Source: an uncultured Ardenticatenia bacterium | GTDB lineage: Bacteria; Chloroflexota; Anaerolineae; 4572-78; NAK82 | Length of the DNA: 37,307 nucleotides | Direction of reading: 5' to 3' | Assembly: GCA_937127125.1 (NCBI GenBank) | Contig: CAKZLO010000022.1 | Coordinates: 1 to 37,307 of the forward strand | In this document: positions 17,590-36,846 of the stretch, piece after piece | Position numbering within the stretch: position 1 is the stretch's first letter | Layout: each line of letters begins with the position of its first letter | Notes under the pieces: generated by a model | Databases searched by the model: none | What the model saw: the letters and a program-made list of their open reading frames with translations, nothing else | Told to the model about the DNA's origin: nothing | Position numbers and translations under genes: made by a program

Positions 17590-17750
17590 GCTGGCTGACG
17601 TGTGCGGCGCGGTTAAATTGATCCGAGCCGCGACCGTGCGTAGGGGCGCAATACATTGCGCCCGTACCCGCCCCCGGCCAACACACACGAGTGCGGGTAC
17701 AATGCCATTGTGCCCCTGCGGACGCGCGCGGCCGAGTGTGCGCATAAGGC
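17590..17750. repeat. Composite palindromic repeat (two palindromes around a GGCCGG core)
   Basis: In reverse orientation relative to the copy at position 1, it shows GCGTAGGGGCGCAATACATT with GCGCCCGTAC, a CCCGCCCCCGGCCAACAC core and a second diverged palindrome GTACAATGCCATTGTGCCCC, then GCGGACGCGCGCGG. The same composite occurs at 23030-23150 and 29755-29862. It fills the gap before the aldolase gene. Confidence 0.85.
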
Positions 17751-23029: not shown

Positions 23030-23160
23030 AAATTTGATCCGCGCCGCGACCGTGCGTAGGGGCGCAATCCATTGCGCCCGTACCCGCCCCCGGCCAACAC
23101 GCGCGCGCGGGTGCAACTTATTGCGCCCCTACGGACGCGCGCGGGTCGGTTTGGCCGCTT
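23030..23160. repeat. Composite palindromic repeat after the DoxX-like gene
   Basis: GCCGCGACCGTGCGTAGGGG with CGCAATCCATTGCGCCCGTA, the CCGCCCCCGGCCAACACG core, then GGGTGCAACTTATTGCGCCC and CTACGGACGCGCGCGGGTCG. It matches the 17590-17750 composite in order and orientation. GCGCGCGGGTCGGT-like pieces recur down to 23205. Confidence 0.85.
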
Positions 23161-29634: not shown

Positions 29635-29754
29635 AGCAAGTCTCCTGTGACGAGAGGATGAGTTGGGCGATGGGGATTATAACACGCTGGCTGCGCGCTG
29701 TCAGATGCTGGAGGATGCGTGGACGGGATCCAACCCATGCGCGTCGCTCCGATC

Positions 29755-29862
29755 CGCGCGCGTCCGTAGGGGCACATTCAATTGCGCCCACGCGCGTGTT
29801 GGCCGGCGGCGGGTACGGGCGCAATGTATTGCGCCCCTACGCACGGGCGCGGGGCGGAAACA
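29755..29862. repeat. Composite palindromic repeat, forward orientation
   Basis: CGTCCGTAGGGGCACATTCA with ATTGCGCCCACGCGCGTGTT, the GGCCGGCGGCGGGTAC core, then GGGCGCAATGTATTGCGCCC and CCTACGCACGGGCGCGGG. It is the inverse of the composites at 17590-17750 and 23030-23160. The rest of 29635-29873 holds no gene I can support. Confidence 0.85.
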
Positions 29863-29873
29863 GCCGCACCCAC

Positions 29874-29902
29874 TTGACAGACACCCCTTTTGCGCATATC
29901 AT
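29874..29902 (+). promoter_or_regulatory. Consensus promoter of the cobalamin operon
   Basis: TTGACA and TATCAT are separated by 17 bp. Transcription would start near 29909, about 20 nt before the riboswitch P1 stem. Confidence 0.85.
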
Positions 29903-29930
29903 GAAACATGACAATTGAATACGTGTTCAG

Positions 29931-30077
29931 CGACACAGGTGCCCGTCGCCCCGGATGGCACGGGTGGTAACGGTGAAGTTGGTGACTCGCGCGTCGGATG
30001 ACGCCGAGAAGTCCAACGCTGTCCCGCAACTGTAGGGCGGTGTGTCCACCGCCGAGCCAGGTCATCCACCTGTGTCG
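29931..30077 (+). ncRNA. Cobalamin (B12) riboswitch aptamer
   Basis: A perfect 11-bp P1 stem is formed by CGACACAGGTG (29931-29941) and CACCTGTGTCG (30067-30077). Conserved blocks lie between them in the right order: GGTGCCC, GGTAACGGTGAAGTTGGTG, TCCAACGCTGTCCCGCAACT and the B12-box-like GAGCCAGGTCATCC. The aptamer binds adenosylcobalamin or a related corrinoid. It lies just behind a consensus promoter and before an attenuator, so it should repress the operon when B12 is plentiful. It places the DUF4430-like proteins and the ECF transporter in corrinoid metabolism. Confidence 0.93.
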
Positions 30078-30078
30078 T

Positions 30079-30115
30079 GCACCACGGTACGCCTTCGCGG
30101 TAAAGGGTGTGGTGC
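30079..30115 (+). promoter_or_regulatory. Anti-antiterminator hairpin of the riboswitch
   Basis: GCACCAC (30079-30085) pairs with GTGGTGC (30109-30115). The right arm overlaps GGGTGTG (30105-30111), which could instead pair with CACACCC (30133-30139) and open the terminator. The two pairings exclude each other. Confidence 0.6.
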
Positions 30116-30133
30116 GGTGCGCCAGATGAGATC

Positions 30134-30171
30134 ACACCCCCCAAAGGTCAGCCCGAGGGGGGTGTATTTTT
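30134..30171 (+). terminator. Riboswitch attenuator terminator
   Basis: ACACCCCCC and GGGGGGTGT form a perfect 9-bp stem around a 14-nt loop, followed by ATTTTT. It lies between the aptamer and the first gene, so it should stop transcription when the ligand is bound. Confidence 0.85.
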
Positions 30172-30312
30172 CCTAGAGCGGCCTGCCGCCCTACGCAGCG
30201 AAGGCATGGACCGTGCAGGCGCATCGCACTCGCTGCCCCAGTGTGCCGCTTACCACGGCCTATGGGGCTGGCATATCAACACCCCAAGAAAGAGAGGAGA
30301 CCGCAAGCAAAG

Positions 30313-31719
30313 ATGACAGGAAGAACAACCGCGAGGCTGCTGGGATCGTTGGGATGGCCGCTGGCCCTCGGGCTGGCCATGGTTGCCGTGGTGCTGGGAA
30401 GTGTGGCTATGCTGGCGCCGCCGGAGGCGCACGCAAGCGGGCCCGTCAAGACAGGTTACGTGGTGGTGCGCTTCGGCGACCACGACTCGCTGGTGCGCGT
30501 GTTCACCTTTACAACGCCCATCTCCAGCTATGTCGCTCTGCAACGCGCCGGCCTCAACCCGGTGGCGGCCAACACGGCCTGGGGGCTGATGCTGTGTGGC
30601 ATTGCCGGCGTGGGGAAGACCAATCCAGCAGGCAACAGCTGCGACAATGGTGCTTTCTTCTGGCTTACTTACTATTGGGATCAGGGCAGCGCGCCACCGA
30701 GCTGGCAGGGGTACACGGTCGGCGTCGGCGACAGCGTGATCGCTCAGGACGGACACATCGATGGGTACGTGTGGACCAATAGGTGGCCTGGACCTCAGCC
30801 GCCCCACGGACCGGGCGCGGTGGCGGCCTACAAAGGGTTGGAGTGGCTGCGTCCTCGGCAGGATGCCAGCACGGGTGGCTACGGCACACCCAATGACACG
30901 CTGGAGGTGTTGCTGGCGGTGACGGCGAACCATTACGATGCCGATCAGTGGCGGCGCAACCCGGGCAGCCCGTCGCTGCGGACGGCTGGGATCTATGCGG
31001 CGTCCATCTCGCAGCGCGTCGACGGCGCGGGCAAGCTGGCGACGGCTATGGCGGCTGCCGAAGGCTGCTGGCCGTTCATCGCGAAGAACATCATGGCCTA
31101 CTACGACTCCAACACGGGCCGGTTTGACCCCAACCCGGGCTACCAGGCCTGGGCGATCATCGGCCTGCGCGCGCTGAGTCAGACCATCCCGGCCAAGGCG
31201 GTGCAGGCGCTCGAGGCGATGCAAACAGGCGATGGCAGCTGGCCGTATGGCTCCTGGAGCACCACCGGCGACACCAACGGCACCGCGCTCGCCATCCAGG
31301 CGCTCATCGCCGCGGGCAAGGTGCCCACCTCGACGGCGGTGACCGGGGGGCTGAACTACCTGGAGGATGCGCAGAACGCGGACGGCGGCTTCCCGTGGGA
31401 TCCGCAGTCGTCGTGGGGCACGGACAGCGACACCAACTCGACCGCTTATGTGGTGCAGGCGATCGTGGCAGCCGGCGAAGACCCCACCGCCGGGCGCTGG
31501 CTGAAGGACAGCAACCACCCCATCAGCTATTTGGTGAGCATGCAGTTGCCGGGGGGAGCGTTTGAATGGCAGCCGGGTCAGGGGGCGAACCAGCTGGCGA
31601 CGCAGCAGGCGATTCCGGCATTGCTGTACCGTCCGTTCCCCCTTGTCGCGGCGGAGATCCCTCCCTACTGTGAGGGGATATTGTTCCCGGCTGCGTACTT
31701 GCCCATCGTCGCGAAGTAG
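30313..31719 (+). CDS. Secreted intrinsic-factor-like protein: DUF4430-like plus alpha/alpha barrel
   Basis: A 468-residue secreted protein, first gene of the B12-riboswitch operon. A long signal peptide (about 1-43, ending PPEAHASG) is followed by a DUF4430-like domain at about 47-155, with Cys95 and Cys110 as a possible disulfide and DGHIDGYVW at its end. From about 169 come alpha/alpha-barrel repeats of the prenyltransferase/squalene-cyclase class (GYGTPNDTLE, GYQAWAIIGLRALSQ, GDGSWPYGSW, ADGGFPWDP). Animal intrinsic factor and transcobalamin use the same two modules in the opposite order. No cyclase DxDD motif is seen, so an enzyme role is unlikely. The C-terminus ends AAYLPIVAK. I use the ATG at 30313. 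I infer extracellular corrinoid capture. Confidence 0.85.
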   Translation: MTGRTTARLLGSLGWPLALGLAMVAVVLGSVAMLAPPEAHASGPVKTGYVVVRFGDHDSLVRVFTFTTPISSYVALQRAGLNPVAANTAWGLMLCGIAGVGKTNPAGNSCDNGAFFWLTYYWDQGSAPPSWQGYTVGVGDSVIAQDGHIDGYVWTNRWPGPQPPHGPGAVAAYKGLEWLRPRQDASTGGYGTPNDTLEVLLAVTANHYDADQWRRNPGSPSLRTAGIYAASISQRVDGAGKLATAMAAAEGCWPFIAKNIMAYYDSNTGRFDPNPGYQAWAIIGLRALSQTIPAKAVQALEAMQTGDGSWPYGSWSTTGDTNGTALAIQALIAAGKVPTSTAVTGGLNYLEDAQNADGGFPWDPQSSWGTDSDTNSTAYVVQAIVAAGEDPTAGRWLKDSNHPISYLVSMQLPGGAFEWQPGQGANQLATQQAIPALLYRPFPLVAAEIPPYCEGILFPAAYLPIVAK

Positions 31720-31845
31720 TGAGGGTATGCCGGGGACAGACAGGTTGTGGGGATGCTAAACGGGCCGCGCGCGGCTCGGACTGGGGTGCGGGGCAGATTG
31801 GATCACGGCGCGGATAACAGATTGAATCAAGGAGGTGCTTGGTGC

Positions 31846-33195
31846 GTGGGCGGAGGTGATATCCGCTGGCATGGTTGCTGGTCGGTGGGGCGCCTGGTGG
31901 CGCTCGTGTTGGTGTTGGTGCTGGTCACCTTCGCAGGGGCGACCCCCCACACGCAGGCGCAGGGCCCACACCGTGTCGCCCTGGTGGTGGTGTACGAGGG
32001 CAAGACGATCAAGAAATGCATCAGCTTCAGCGAGGAGCAGATCACAGGCTACGACGTGCTGGAGCGCTCGGGGCTGGCGCTGATTCCGATGGCCAGCGGG
32101 ATGGGCATCGCCATCTGCAGCATTGACAATCACGGCTGCAACTATCCGGCTGAGGATTGCTTCTGCCGATGTCAGGGCAGCCCGTGCGTCTACTGGTCCT
32201 ACTGGCACTTGAAGGATGGTGGCTGGCAATACTCCTCGCTGGGCGCGTCCAACTATTGGGTGCGCGACGGCGACGTGGAGGGCTGGGTGTGGGGCAAAGG
32301 CGAATACGGCCGCTCGGGAAGCAAGCCGCCCAACGTGCGCTTTGAGGACATCTGTCGGCCTGAGGCGCCGGCCCCCCCTGCGGACGTCCCGGCTCCCCCC
32401 GCAGATGATGAGGAGCCGGAGGCGCCTGCCGAGCAACCCGAGAGGAAGAAGAAGCTGCCCGTCATTGACTACTTCACCGCCGACCGCACCACTATTCTGC
32501 TGGGCGAGAGCGTTACGTTGTCCTGGGACCTGCACGGGGCCAAGGAGGCCTATTTGCGCGTGGGCGATCAGGAGCAGGGGGTGATCGCTCCCTATAGCAC
32601 GGTTGTGGCGCCGACGAGCACGACCGAGTACGTGCTGCTGGCGCGCAACAAAGATGGCGAGGTGCGCAAGAAGGTGCGCGTTGAGGTGGTGCCCATCACT
32701 GTGACGCCGACGCCGACGGAGACGCCCCTGCCGCCGACGCCGACGGACACACCGCGGCCACGGCCCACGCGCACGCCGACCCCGACCGACGTCCCGACTC
32801 CGACCGAGACCGCCACGCCGTCGGCGTTTGCTGTGACGGCGCAGGTGGTTGCGGCGGCGCCTGCTTTCCCGCGCCTGCCCACCATCACGCCCACGTCAAC
32901 GCGCACCCCAACACTGACGCCGACGCCGCTGGCGGTGGCCGTCCTGCGCGCCACGCCACTGCCGTTGCCGCTGGCCGGCGCCGACCTGCCCGTGCGCACT
33001 GTGCCACCAGCGGCGCATGGACTGGATGTCCCGCCAACCCTGCTGATGGTCATCGGTGTGCTGGCGCTTGTGGGGGGGCTGGCCAGCTTGGTGCTCGTCT
33101 GGCAGATCGCGCGCTGGGCGGACGACCGTCGGCGGACGGGGCAGGGACCGCGCCGTGATGCGCGCACGCGTCGCGAAGGTAGGGGGAACGCATAA
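31846..33195 (+). CDS. Membrane-anchored DUF4430-like protein on an Ig-like/Pro-Thr stalk
   Basis: A 449-residue surface protein. A signal peptide (VGRLVALVLVLVLVTFAGA) is followed by a DUF4430-like domain (about 43-163) similar to that of the upstream protein: both have DVLxRxGL or VALQRAGL, a Cys-containing central block and a closing DGxxxGxVW. Then come an Ig-like domain (about 203-281), a stalk of PTPT repeats (about 285-364), one membrane helix (about 397-420) and a short basic tail. I chose the GTG at 31846, 10 bp after AAGGAGG; the open frame upstream has no ribosome site and crosses repeat-like sequence. Its stop overlaps the S-component start (TAATG). I infer a tethered corrinoid receptor next to the transporter. 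Confidence 0.82.
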   Translation: MGGGDIRWHGCWSVGRLVALVLVLVLVTFAGATPHTQAQGPHRVALVVVYEGKTIKKCISFSEEQITGYDVLERSGLALIPMASGMGIAICSIDNHGCNYPAEDCFCRCQGSPCVYWSYWHLKDGGWQYSSLGASNYWVRDGDVEGWVWGKGEYGRSGSKPPNVRFEDICRPEAPAPPADVPAPPADDEEPEAPAEQPERKKKLPVIDYFTADRTTILLGESVTLSWDLHGAKEAYLRVGDQEQGVIAPYSTVVAPTSTTEYVLLARNKDGEVRKKVRVEVVPITVTPTPTETPLPPTPTDTPRPRPTRTPTPTDVPTPTETATPSAFAVTAQVVAAAPAFPRLPTITPTSTRTPTLTPTPLAVAVLRATPLPLPLAGADLPVRTVPPAAHGLDVPPTLLMVIGVLALVGGLASLVLVWQIARWADDRRRTGQGPRRDARTRREGRGNA

Positions 33196-34016
33196 TGCGC
33201 GACCGCTTGATCGGCTGGTCGATCCATCTGGCGAGTGTGGCGATCGGGGTGACCGCCTTTCTCTACCCCTTCTTCGCGCCGGCGCTGCCGCAGGAGTCGT
33301 TTGGAATGGCGCACGCCGAGGATGCGCCGCTGCTGCTGACCGTGTTGGTGGGTGTTTGTTTCGCCGCCCTGCTGGTGGAGGCGCAGCGACAGGCGGGCAG
33401 TGCCAAGCTGGTGGCGCTGCTCGGCGTGCTTGTCTCGCTCAACGCGTTGTTGCGCTTTGTGGAGGTGGCCGTGCCGGGGCCGGGCGGCTTCAGCCCCATC
33501 TTCTTCCTCATCGTGATGACGGGCTATGTGATGGGGGGCAGTTTCGGCTTCCTGATGGGGGCGCTGACCCTGCTGGTCTCGGCGCTGATCACGGCCGGCG
33601 TGGGGCCCTGGCTGCCCTATCAGATGATCACTGCCGGCTGGATCGGCCTGTCGGCGCCGGCCTGTCGCCCCCTCGTGCGTATGCTGGGCGGCGAGGGCAC
33701 CTGGCGCGAGGTCGTCGTGTTGGCCCTCTTCTCGGGCATCTGGGGGATGGTCTTCGGCGCGATCATGAATCTGTGGTTCTGGCCGTATGCCGTCGGGCCG
33801 CAGGAGCAACACTGGCAACCCGGCCTGCACTGGACGGGTGGGGTGTTGCGCTACGCCGCCTTCTACCTGGCGACCTCGCTGGTCTGGGATGCTATGCGGC
33901 TGGCGGGCAACTTCGTCCTGACGCTGGCCTTTGGCCTGCCTACGCTGCGCGTGTTGCGCCGCTTCCAGCAGCGTTTTCTTTTTGTCTATCGGCCGAGCGA
34001 GCAGGTGAGCGTATGA
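33195..34016 (+). CDS. ECF transporter S component, predicted cobalamin specific
   Basis: A 273-residue integral membrane protein with about six hydrophobic segments, the substrate-binding subunit of an energy-coupling-factor transporter. Family-like features are a central MTGYVMGGSFGFLMGALTLL, the loop GVGPWLPYQMITAGWIG and a short second half with W-rich FGAIMNLWFWPY. The sequence alone does not name the ligand; the B12 riboswitch and the two DUF4430-like genes upstream point to cobalamin or a precursor. The start overlaps the previous stop (TAATG) and the stop overlaps the T-component start (ATGA). Confidence 0.87.
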   Translation: MRDRLIGWSIHLASVAIGVTAFLYPFFAPALPQESFGMAHAEDAPLLLTVLVGVCFAALLVEAQRQAGSAKLVALLGVLVSLNALLRFVEVAVPGPGGFSPIFFLIVMTGYVMGGSFGFLMGALTLLVSALITAGVGPWLPYQMITAGWIGLSAPACRPLVRMLGGEGTWREVVVLALFSGIWGMVFGAIMNLWFWPYAVGPQEQHWQPGLHWTGGVLRYAAFYLATSLVWDAMRLAGNFVLTLAFGLPTLRVLRRFQQRFLFVYRPSEQVSV

Positions 34017-35224
34017 TTCACCCGGTGGCCTGGCTGATCTGGCTGGGGGCTGTGCTGGTCGTGCTGACGACGACGCGCAATCCCCTTTATCTGGCGGTGA
34101 TGCTGGCCGTGTTGGCTGCCGTGCTGACGCGTCTGCGGCGTGTCCATGCGGAGGAGACGCCCCGTGTGCCGCTCAGCCCGCTGCATTTTGCGCTCATCGT
34201 GCTGCCGCTCACCGCCCTGTTCAACGCGCTGACGGTGCATGTGGGGCGCACTGTGTTGCTGCGCCTGCCCGTCACGTGGCCACTCGTGGGCGGGCCGATC
34301 ACGCTCGAGGCGTTGACCTTCGGTGCGCTTAACGGACTGGCTTTGGTGGGCATTTACACCGCCTTCGTCGTGTTGGGCTATGCGGTGACGGTGCGCGCGC
34401 TGGTGGGGTTGATTCCACGCGCGTTCTTCCCTGTTGCCGTGATGACCTCGATCGCGCTCACGTTTGTGCCGGTGACGTTGCGCCACTGGCAGGCGATTCG
34501 CGAGGCGCAGGCGATCCGGGGCCACCGCGTTCGCGGCCTGCGCGACCATCTGCCCCTCTTCCTGCCCCTGTTGATCGGGGGGCTGGAACATGCCTTCCAA
34601 CTGGCCGAGGCGATGACGGCGCGCGGATTTGCCGCTGCCGCGGAGACGCCAAGTACACGCCGCGCCCGTGTGGTGGTGGCGAGCGGGCTGCTCACGCTGC
34701 TGGCAGGGTGGCTGTTGCAATTGGGCTGGGGCGAACGTGCCCTCGGCGGCGCGCTGATGCTGCTGGGCGGGGGAGAGGTGATCGGGGCGCTGTGGTATCT
34801 GGGCCGGCAGGTGCCGCGCATCACCTACCGCCACACCCCCTGGCGGGCGCGCGACCTGGCCATCGCCCTGGCGGCGGGTGTGACGGCGGCTGCTTTCTTG
34901 GTGCCGTGGCCCGGCCTGGAGCGCCATAGCATCTTCTTCTATCCCTATCCCGCGTTGCGCCTGCCCGAGGTGAGCGCATGGCTGCTGCTGGCGCTGACCG
35001 GGCTGGAGGTGCCCCTGGTGCTCATGCCGGCGGCACGGCGCCTCACCATCGCGCCGCGCATGTCGGCCGGCGACCACGCTGCACCACACGCCCCAGAGGA
35101 TGACCGGCGAGAGTGCTCCCGCACGGTCGCGGAGCGGGGCGATCTCACCGAGTCGCGCGGTATGGCGACACCGCGTCCGCTCGAGACGGCCACAGCACCC
35201 ATCGAAACCGGAGAACGGCTATGA
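34013..35224 (+). CDS. ECF transporter T component (EcfT-like permease)
   Basis: A 403-residue transmembrane coupling protein that links the S component to the ATPases. Both Ala-Arg-Gly-type coupling motifs are present: AQAIRG and, about 40 residues on, AMTARGF. Several hydrophobic segments surround them, and two or three extra helices follow. The hydrophilic tail after VLMPAARRL is long, and part of it ([11 protein letters not shown]) is encoded by a fragment of the dispersed repeat. The start at 34013 overlaps the S-component stop; an open frame continues upstream to 33056, but that is an antisense-phase artefact over the S gene. The stop overlaps the ATPase start. Confidence 0.9.
35112..35140. 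repeat. Repeat fragment inside the ecfT coding region
   Basis: GCTCCCGCACGGTCGCGGAG-CGGGGCG matches the CTCCCGCACGGTCGCGG part of the repeats at 6900 and 13610. It is in frame and encodes part of the hydrophilic C-terminal tail of the T component. Confidence 0.7.
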
Positions 35225-36846
35225 TCATCTTTCGCAATGTTTCCTACACCTACCCGGGCGCGGCGCGACCCGTCTTGCGCCATCTCGACTTCAGCCTGCC
35301 TGAGGCATCCTTTACCCTGGTGGTCGGGCGCTCGGGGACGGGCAAATCCACCATGTTGCGCTGCGTCAACGGGCTGGTGCCCCATTTCAGCGGTGGCACC
35401 TTTGCCGGTCGCATAGCGGTGGCCGGACTCGACCCGTTGGTGGCGGCACCGCGCGGGATAAGCCGCCATGTCGGCTTTGTCTTCCAGAATCCGGAGGCGC
35501 AGTTCGTCGTTGACCGCGTCGAGGATGAGATCGCCTTTGCGTTGGAGAGCGCGGCCATGCCCCGCCAAGAGATGCGCGTGCGCGTCGAGGAGGTGCTCGA
35601 CCTGCTCGACCTGGCCGCGCTGCGTGAGCGCAAGTTGGAGACGCTCTCGGGGGGCGAGCGTCAGCGCGTCGCCATTGCCGCCGCCTTGGCCTTCCGTCCG
35701 CGCGTGCTGGTTTTGGATGAGCCGACGTCGCAACTCGATCCGCAATCCGCCGAGGATGTCTTCAACGCGCTGGTGCGCCTCAATCACGACCTGGGCCTGA
35801 CCGTGCTGCTGGCGGAGCATCGCCTGGAGCGTGTGTTGCCCTATGCCGACCACATCATCGCCCTGTCCGACGCTTCTGACGGTCAGGCGAACTATGTCTA
35901 CGGGCCGACGCGGGAGGTGTTGCCCGAGTTGGCGCTGGTGCCGCCGTTGGTGGCGCTGGCGAAGGCGCTGAACTGGCAGCCGTTGCCGCTCACGACGAAG
36001 GAGGGGTTGCGCTTCAGCCAGCCGCTCGTCGCCCACATTCCGCCGAGCGTGCCCAAGGCCTCTCGGCAGCGTGGGGAGCCATGCCTGGCGCTGCGGCGCG
36101 TCACGGTGCGCTATGCGGATCGGCCCGTCCTGCGTGCGGTCAACCTGGAGGTAGCGCGCGGCGAGCTGGTGGTCCTGATGGGGCGCAACGGCTCGGGCAA
36201 GACCACCCTGCTCAAGACGCTGGTGGGGCTGGTGCGACCGCAGACGGGGCAGGTGTGGGTGGATGGGCGCGAGGTGACAGGCGAGGATGTGGCGAGCATC
36301 TGTCGTCGCGTGGGCTATCTGCCGCAGGAGGCGGATGCGTTGTTGTATGCCGACACGGCGCGCCAGGAACTGAGCATCACGTTGCGCAACCACGCGTTGC
36401 CCGCGGCAGACGACGTGATCGCGCGCCATCTGGAGCGTCTGGGCGTTGCTGCCTACGCCGAGCGTTATCCGCGCGACCTGAGCGTGGGGGAGCGTCAGCG
36501 CGTCGCCTTGGGCGCGGTGACCGTGGTGCAGCCGGTTGCCCTGCTCCTCGACGAGCCGACGCGCGGGCTGGACTATGCTGCCAAGGAGGCGCTGGGCGCC
36601 CTGTTGCGTGCTTGGCGGGATGCCGGCATGGCGATTCTGCTGGTGACGCACGATGTGGAGTTTGCGGCACGCACGGCGGATCGGGTGGTGTTGTTGAGTC
36701 AGGGTGAGGTCATAGCCGAGGGGAGTCCGGCGGAAGTGATGGGCAGTTCGCCCCTGTTTGCGCCGCAGATGGCGCGGCTGTTTCCGGGGCGTGGCTGGCT
36801 GACGGTGGAGGAGAGTTTGCGCGGTCTGGGGGTTGCGTCCGCCTGA
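35221..36846 (+). CDS. ECF transporter ATPase, two fused ABC domains
   Basis: A 541-residue protein with two complete ABC ATPase domains that power the ECF transporter. Domain 1 has Walker [10 protein letters not shown] (36-44), signature LSGGERQRV (from 142) and Walker [13 protein letters not shown] (about 162-173). Domain 2 has Walker [10 protein letters not shown] (from 321), signature LSVGERQRV (from 420) and Walker [13 protein letters not shown] (about 440-451). The fused EcfA-EcfA' form is common in such operons. The ATG at 35221 overlaps the T-component stop. The final residues GVASA run into a GC-rich repeat-like stretch. Confidence 0.94.

Follow-up and report, generated by a model that had tools for sequence, protein, structure and literature searches.

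The operon described here lies on a contig of 37,307 nucleotides from an uncultured Ardenticatenia bacterium (CAKZLO010000022.1; the whole stretch is hereafter called the window), in which five tightly packed open reading frames (ORFs) occupy positions 30313-36846 of the plus strand and overlap by 1-4 bases at the last three junctions. The first gene, P1 (30313..31719), codes for a secreted protein with a signal sequence and no anchor, composed of a transcobalamin-type beta domain (approximately residues 45-156) and an alpha/alpha toroid (approximately residues 165-440) recognised as SQHop by Pfam and NCBIfam. P2 (~31747..33195, start codon uncertain) comprises a signal sequence, a beta domain (residues ~73-204), an Ig-like domain, a Pro/Thr stalk and a C-terminal transmembrane (TM) helix carrying a basic tail. 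The remaining genes encode S (33195..34016), a substrate-binding membrane component of the energy-coupling factor (ECF) type identified by profile comparison with the PDB as a relative of CbrT, T (34013..35224), a CbiQ/EcfT transmembrane component (PF02361, E 4.2e-9), and A (35221..36846), in which two stretches match the ECF ATPase family (TIGR04520, E 1.6e-105) as two fused domains. No Pfam match was obtained for S or P2. With an S component, a T component and two ATPase domains the operon has the composition of an ECF transporter, and both its gene content and its coordinates agree with an earlier interpretation made from the letters alone (the sequence-only reading), which had already named the S, T and fused-ATPase set.

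Upstream of P1, also on the plus strand, a sigma-70-type promoter (TTGACA-17-TATCAT, 29874..29902, 11 of 12 consensus matches; two promoter-like sites were found in the region, compared with 0.2 expected) is followed by a cobalamin riboswitch aptamer (29920..30087). This aptamer, the sole Rfam match within the window, belongs to RF00174, with an alignment spanning model positions 1-189 and a score of 55.7 bits (gathering threshold 31.5 bits, E 2.4e-11). Folding with ViennaRNA delineated an expression platform at 30100..30172 (plus strand), consisting of an antiterminator-like pairing of GGGTGTGGTG with CACACCC and a competing hairpin with a 9-bp G+C stem (ACACCCCCC...GGGGGGTGT, ~30134-30172, -20.3 kcal/mol) followed by ATTTTT, which a simple terminator scan overlooked because the hairpin loop is longer than 8 nt. 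The platform is predicted to act as a transcription attenuator. Promoter, aptamer and attenuator were all recovered as the sequence-only reading had described them. A dispersed repeat around the palindrome GGGCGCAATGTATTGCGCCCCTACGCACGG, possibly a MITE-like (miniature inverted-repeat transposable element) sequence, was observed just upstream of the promoter (~29750-29858), at 23038-23149 and 17622-17731, at other sites, and on the contig that carries the P1 paralogue described below.

When the S profile was compared with the PDB, the best match was 6fnp_A (E 9.2e-6, positions 72-192), the next being at E 1.6 or worse. 6FNP is CbrT, an S component that binds and transports cobalamin and cobinamide and has an affinity of ~9 nM for cyanocobalamin (PMC5997447), and S falls into the CbrT sequence family. 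That a CbrT-related S protein, together with the T and ATPase subunits, would import a corrinoid across the membrane is a well supported prediction. Like ECF-CbrT of Lactobacillus delbrueckii (PDB 6FNP, PMC5997447), the system combines an S component of this family with ECF-type T and A; unlike ECF-CbrT, the window operon has a dedicated T and a fused A, encodes extracellular binders, and its S is ~90 residues longer. A Cbi/Nik MNQO-type importer of cobalt or nickel under the control of the end product B12 would agree with the annotation of T as CbiQ 'cobalt transport', with the CbiO-like character of A and with the occurrence of B12 riboswitches in front of cobalt importers elsewhere (PMC2667541). 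We nevertheless consider such an importer highly improbable, given that S has no match to CbiM/NikM and has CbrT as its best solved relative, that no corrin-ring synthesis marker was found through which imported cobalt could be used (see below), and that the large beta-domain and toroid proteins would have no role. S homologues with no recognised T, binder or riboswitch nearby were also seen in several Chloroflexota families (loci L044-L045, L047-L056, L058-L061, L063, L065, L067 and L071), and no B12-related neighbours were seen in the four genomes in which such solo S genes were checked for them.

A search of 301 Chloroflexota genomes identified 72 S genes in 71 genomes. Forty-two of these genes were located at most 7 kb downstream of a co-oriented cobalamin aptamer, whereas the number of aptamers and the sizes of the genomes would predict ~0.11, and in 26 of the 32 genomes that have exactly one cobalamin aptamer it is this operon that the aptamer heads. 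Among 61 mapped S loci, P1/P2-type genes and the aptamer were present together in 32, both absent in 22 and discordant in 7. An independent search with the P2 domain yielded 39 named loci, nearly all from Anaerolineae or other Chloroflexota and one from Polyangium. A cobalamin-class aptamer lies upstream on the same strand in 30 of them, and four of the nine loci lacking one end at a contig edge within ~1.1 kb of P2; none of the 39 showed a riboswitch for another vitamin. Cobalamin riboswitch control, read from a single sequence in the first place, is therefore backed by the 55.7-bit RF00174 match and by a linkage conserved across genomes: the survey of Chloroflexota that the sequence-only reading had suggested gave the 42 of 72 genes mentioned above, and the outcome that it had named as speaking against its view, homologous operons with a different vitamin riboswitch, did not occur among the P2 loci. 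Gene order varies (S-T-A or T-A-S) and gene content is nearly constant; tens of genomes share the arrangement, which is therefore not due to chance. Two Streptomyces plasmids and one Embleya strain carry P1, P2, T, A and S near cobalamin aptamers, and one of these actinomycete operons adjoins metE, which has a cobalamin aptamer of its own. A Firmicutes form, located near cobS on a Lactobacillales plasmid, comprises T, A and S together with a protein annotated as a lectin and a true DUF4430 protein. Beside the operon, the Streptomyces plasmids carry another toroid gene of the P1 type in divergent orientation (L139 4296-5870 and L140 599-2011, minus strand), the one in L140 lying behind its own cobalamin aptamer. 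At the locus from the myxobacterium Polyangium (L126 9815-10387), a secreted beta-domain protein belonging to the P2 family stands alone, and neither ECF genes nor a riboswitch was detected in its vicinity.

The alpha/alpha barrel that the sequence-only reading had assigned to the secreted protein corresponds to the SQHop toroid of P1, for which a confident model was obtained. Its closest fold is that of squalene-hopene cyclases (Z ~26), and transcobalamin was also among its Foldseek matches. Squalene-hopene and drimenyl diphosphate cyclases being the closest relatives of the toroid in both sequence and fold, P1 might be an enzyme resembling class II terpene or hopanoid cyclases, and P2 some generic surface protein, the two sharing the operon by accident and leaving only the ECF unit related to B12. 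However, the acid motif DXDD that characterises class II terpene cyclases is replaced in P1 (DTNG in the window, N-S-T-A in the family) and is missing from 58 of 59 P1 toroids, being present in just one, so that catalysis by P1 is unlikely, and this loss led us to reject a terpene cyclase identity for P1. Moreover, P1 is a secreted protein, fusions of the toroid to a transcobalamin-type beta domain occur repeatedly, and the binders co-occur with the riboswitch at 32 loci; we regard this cyclase alternative as very improbable. The majority of P1 homologues (48/54) consist of the toroid without a beta domain, and in 6/54 the two are fused. Intrinsic factor and transcobalamin have an alpha6/alpha6 barrel followed by the beta domain in one chain; the window P1 has the beta domain first, and the barrel-first order was found only in L039 and L043, whose fused P1 is a single anchored chain of toroid, beta domain and anchor. 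A C-terminal [YF][LIV]P tag (AYLPIVAK, TYLPLVLR), possibly a secretion or sorting signal of Chloroflexota, was observed in 21 of 59 P1 homologues, for example at window positions 31690-31719, and in 37 of 1514 other long ORFs.

For the beta domains, AlphaFold2 models were built from alignments of the window proteins with those of related loci. The P2 model had a pLDDT (predicted local distance difference test) of 89, and the 15 solved structures ranked highest by VIA-align for its beta domain (model residues 17-131) were 14 haptocorrin, transcobalamin and intrinsic factor entries and one bacterial structure, 3u7z (Z 11.9), with Z scores of 11.2-12.7 and, in several cases, a root mean square deviation (rmsd) of ~2 over 95-100 residues. 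Structural alignment with 4kki, 7qbe, 3kq4, 2pmv and 5no0 gave Z scores of 11.9-12.7 and rmsd values of 1.8-3.3 over 97-101 residues; the remaining VIA-align matches of the P2 model concern its Ig-like domain. Foldseek alone likewise ranked the transcobalamin beta domain first. In line with this, P2 is predicted to have the beta-grasp fold of the transcobalamin, intrinsic factor and haptocorrin beta domain (SLBB, transcobalamin-like clade), as the sequence-only reading had expected structure prediction to reveal. The N-terminal domain of P1 shows homology to the family of the P2 domain (E 2.1e-14 with the L131 member and 8.6e-6 with the window P2), and 13 of 14 P2 family members matched the NCBIfam SCO2322 family below its cut-off. 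Four operons contain a short additional beta-domain protein (L109 4279-4830, L121 5066-5641, L125 6457-7215 and L130 4584-5159) ending in a PEP-CTERM-like signal (IPEPTTLLLLG...RRR), which suggests from the sequence motif that these proteins may be anchored by an exosortase instead of a TM stalk.

Many B12-using bacteria must import B12, and part of them have no recognised importer. The window's genome is 95% complete, and CbiC, a marker of corrin-ring synthesis, was found neither there nor in 40 of the 44 S-bearing genomes tested; judging from gene content, the Chloroflexota host apparently cannot make its own vitamin B12. The same genome has 13 matches to B12-binding domains and two further cobalamin aptamers. 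One of these heads a lone P1 paralogue with 64% identity (L095 4719-6396, G000 contig 21), and its leader is 96% identical to that of the window over 250 bases; by these alignments the locus is a duplication of leader and secreted binder without the transporter. The other heads a corrinoid methyltransferase operon, whose corrinoid protein is one of the 13 matches and which includes what we take, from reading the sequences, to be the methyltransferase and a reductive activator. A TonB plug domain was found neither in the window's genome nor in any of the 9 genomes searched, in keeping with the earlier view of a cell with no BtuB-type outer-membrane route.

As the host apparently has no B12 synthesis and the gene set recurs in dozens of bacteria, scavenging of external B12-like molecules is very likely, and corrinoid uptake is strongly supported as the predicted function of the operon. 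We consider it probable that the operon as a whole is a scavenging system for corrinoids, the vitamin B12 family, in which a two-domain extracellular clamp feeds S; binding of the ligand by P1 and P2, and any relay between them, is what we infer. The corrinoid would be captured outside the membrane by a transcobalamin-like clamp whose halves are the alpha/alpha toroid of P1 and a beta domain. The window P1 would bring its own beta domain, and P2 would offer a second one on its anchored Ig/Pro-Thr stalk beside the transporter. The bound corrinoid would then be released to the CbrT-related S, which with T and the ATPases would carry it across the membrane, and when B12 is plentiful the riboswitch would terminate transcription.

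Several observations weigh against this interpretation. S homologues have no recognised binder or riboswitch at 22 of the 61 mapped loci, and the S family may therefore not be strictly B12-specific. The discordant loci comprise three operons with riboswitch, T, A and S and no recognised binder, and four loci with a binder and no riboswitch. In structure, terpene cyclases are closer to the P1 toroid than transcobalamin is, so that 'intrinsic-factor-like' describes the parts of P1 and not proven orthology. By sequence, the P2 profile gave chance hits only against the PDB, transcobalamin not being among them, and hhalign found no match between it and the true DUF4430 protein of Lactobacillales; the link between P2 and transcobalamin consequently rests on the predicted fold. 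The label 'DUF4430-like' given to both proteins in the sequence-only reading likewise holds for the predicted fold and not for the Pfam family (PF14478), the profile cut-off of which was reached by neither P1 nor P2 nor any of the relatives scanned. The genome also has one BtuCDF-type system (FecCD permease and LysM-linked binding protein) that carries no cobalamin riboswitch and was for that reason not taken as the true B12 importer; given its presence, the operon need not be the only route for B12.

The imported compound might be cobinamide, another cobamide or a lower-ligand precursor and not cobalamin itself. This is in agreement with riboswitch control, which fits any compound of the pathway, with the transport of cobinamide by CbrT (PMC5997447) and with the position of the Lactobacillales relative near cobS. 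The missing corrin-ring marker shows that import of the ring is needed and is silent on the lower ligand. We regard a different corrinoid as unlikely to be the principal substrate, and it refines the scavenging interpretation rather than contradicting it.

The animal carriers hold their ligand between the two domains. Toroid and beta domain are repeatedly split or fused among the homologues, which argues that they work together and favours a split clamp over a sequential relay. In such a relay, secreted P1 would be a complete carrier that hands the corrinoid to tethered P2 and from there to S, in functional analogy to intrinsic factor with its receptor. Having both domains, a signal sequence and no anchor, the window P1 is compatible with this scheme, as are the tethering of P2 and the extra P1 copy standing alone behind the second riboswitch, as expected of a released capture protein. 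However, a P1 that is toroid only, as in 48 of 54 homologues, could not act as a complete carrier with both domains; what P2 resembles is the beta domain with which the carriers bind their ligand, rather than a receptor of the CD320 or cubilin kind; and the beta domain is supplied on a stalk by P2, or, in two genomes, together with the toroid in one anchored chain. A relay thus appears doubtful. Somewhat better founded, and still put forward tentatively, is a split bacterial transcobalamin, in which the toroid and beta halves, residing on different proteins (secreted and membrane-tethered), would enclose the corrinoid in trans and pass it straight to the CbrT-related S. Such a device would occur in at least Chloroflexota and Actinomycetota; it would take the place of BtuB/BtuF in cells that have no TonB receptors, and the architecture of the animal carriers might plausibly derive from it.

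A system of this kind, apparently still unproven, was predicted for Firmicutes in 2007. That work (Burroughs et al. 2007, PMC1796856) dealt with secreted SLBB proteins of a transcobalamin-like clade to which a toroid is fused at one side or the other, and with a further, paralogous SLBB protein, Ig-fold partners and CbiO/CbiQ genes, in organisms that usually have no B12 synthesis. The authors stated what role the toroid cavity plays and put forward B12 scavenging as the function. Their account covers low-GC Gram-positives, planctomycetes and euryarchaea and makes no mention of Chloroflexi or riboswitches. The window operon shares the secreted beta-grasp domain, the toroid, the second SLBB-type protein, the Ig-fold, CbiO/CbiQ and the lack of B12 synthesis with that system; it differs in its occurrence in Chloroflexota and Actinomycetota, its direct riboswitch control, its CbrT-related S, the distribution of toroid and beta domain mostly over separate proteins and beta domains that lie beyond Pfam DUF4430. 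With vertebrate intrinsic factor, haptocorrin and transcobalamin it has in common the beta-domain fold (Z ~12 for P2 against all three) and an alpha/alpha toroid, whereas the beta-first order of the window P1, the usual split of the domains between two proteins, the TM-anchored stalk, a toroid nearer to terpene cyclases and the lack of an endocytic receptor set it apart. As in BtuFCD, an external high-affinity corrinoid binder is predicted to feed an ABC-type importer, although binder and membrane component are unrelated. The P1 toroid and the P2 domain also match the SCO2321/SCO2322 families (NCBIfam NF053823, NF040672) below cut-off, and a Streptomyces operon has the same content; these families have no stated function, and the present analysis suggests one. 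A literature search that missed most subscription papers found no experimental work on bacterial transcobalamin-like binders.

Elsewhere in the window, at the contig end (37174-37294), a repeat of 37-44 nt, GGTCCGAATCGCAGGAAAGCCCTTCGGGGCATTAAGACC, occurs twice, 77 bases apart, and resembles the beginning of a CRISPR array truncated where the contig stops.

Because riboswitch control ties the binders to B12, the prediction of 2007 becomes directly testable. If the interpretation is true, it would provide a function for widespread unannotated secreted proteins, including the SCO2321/SCO2322-like families, and would explain how B12-dependent Chloroflexota and some actinomycetes gather corrinoids without TonB receptors. 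It would also supply living bacterial proteins with which the origin of the animal B12 carrier architecture could be tested.

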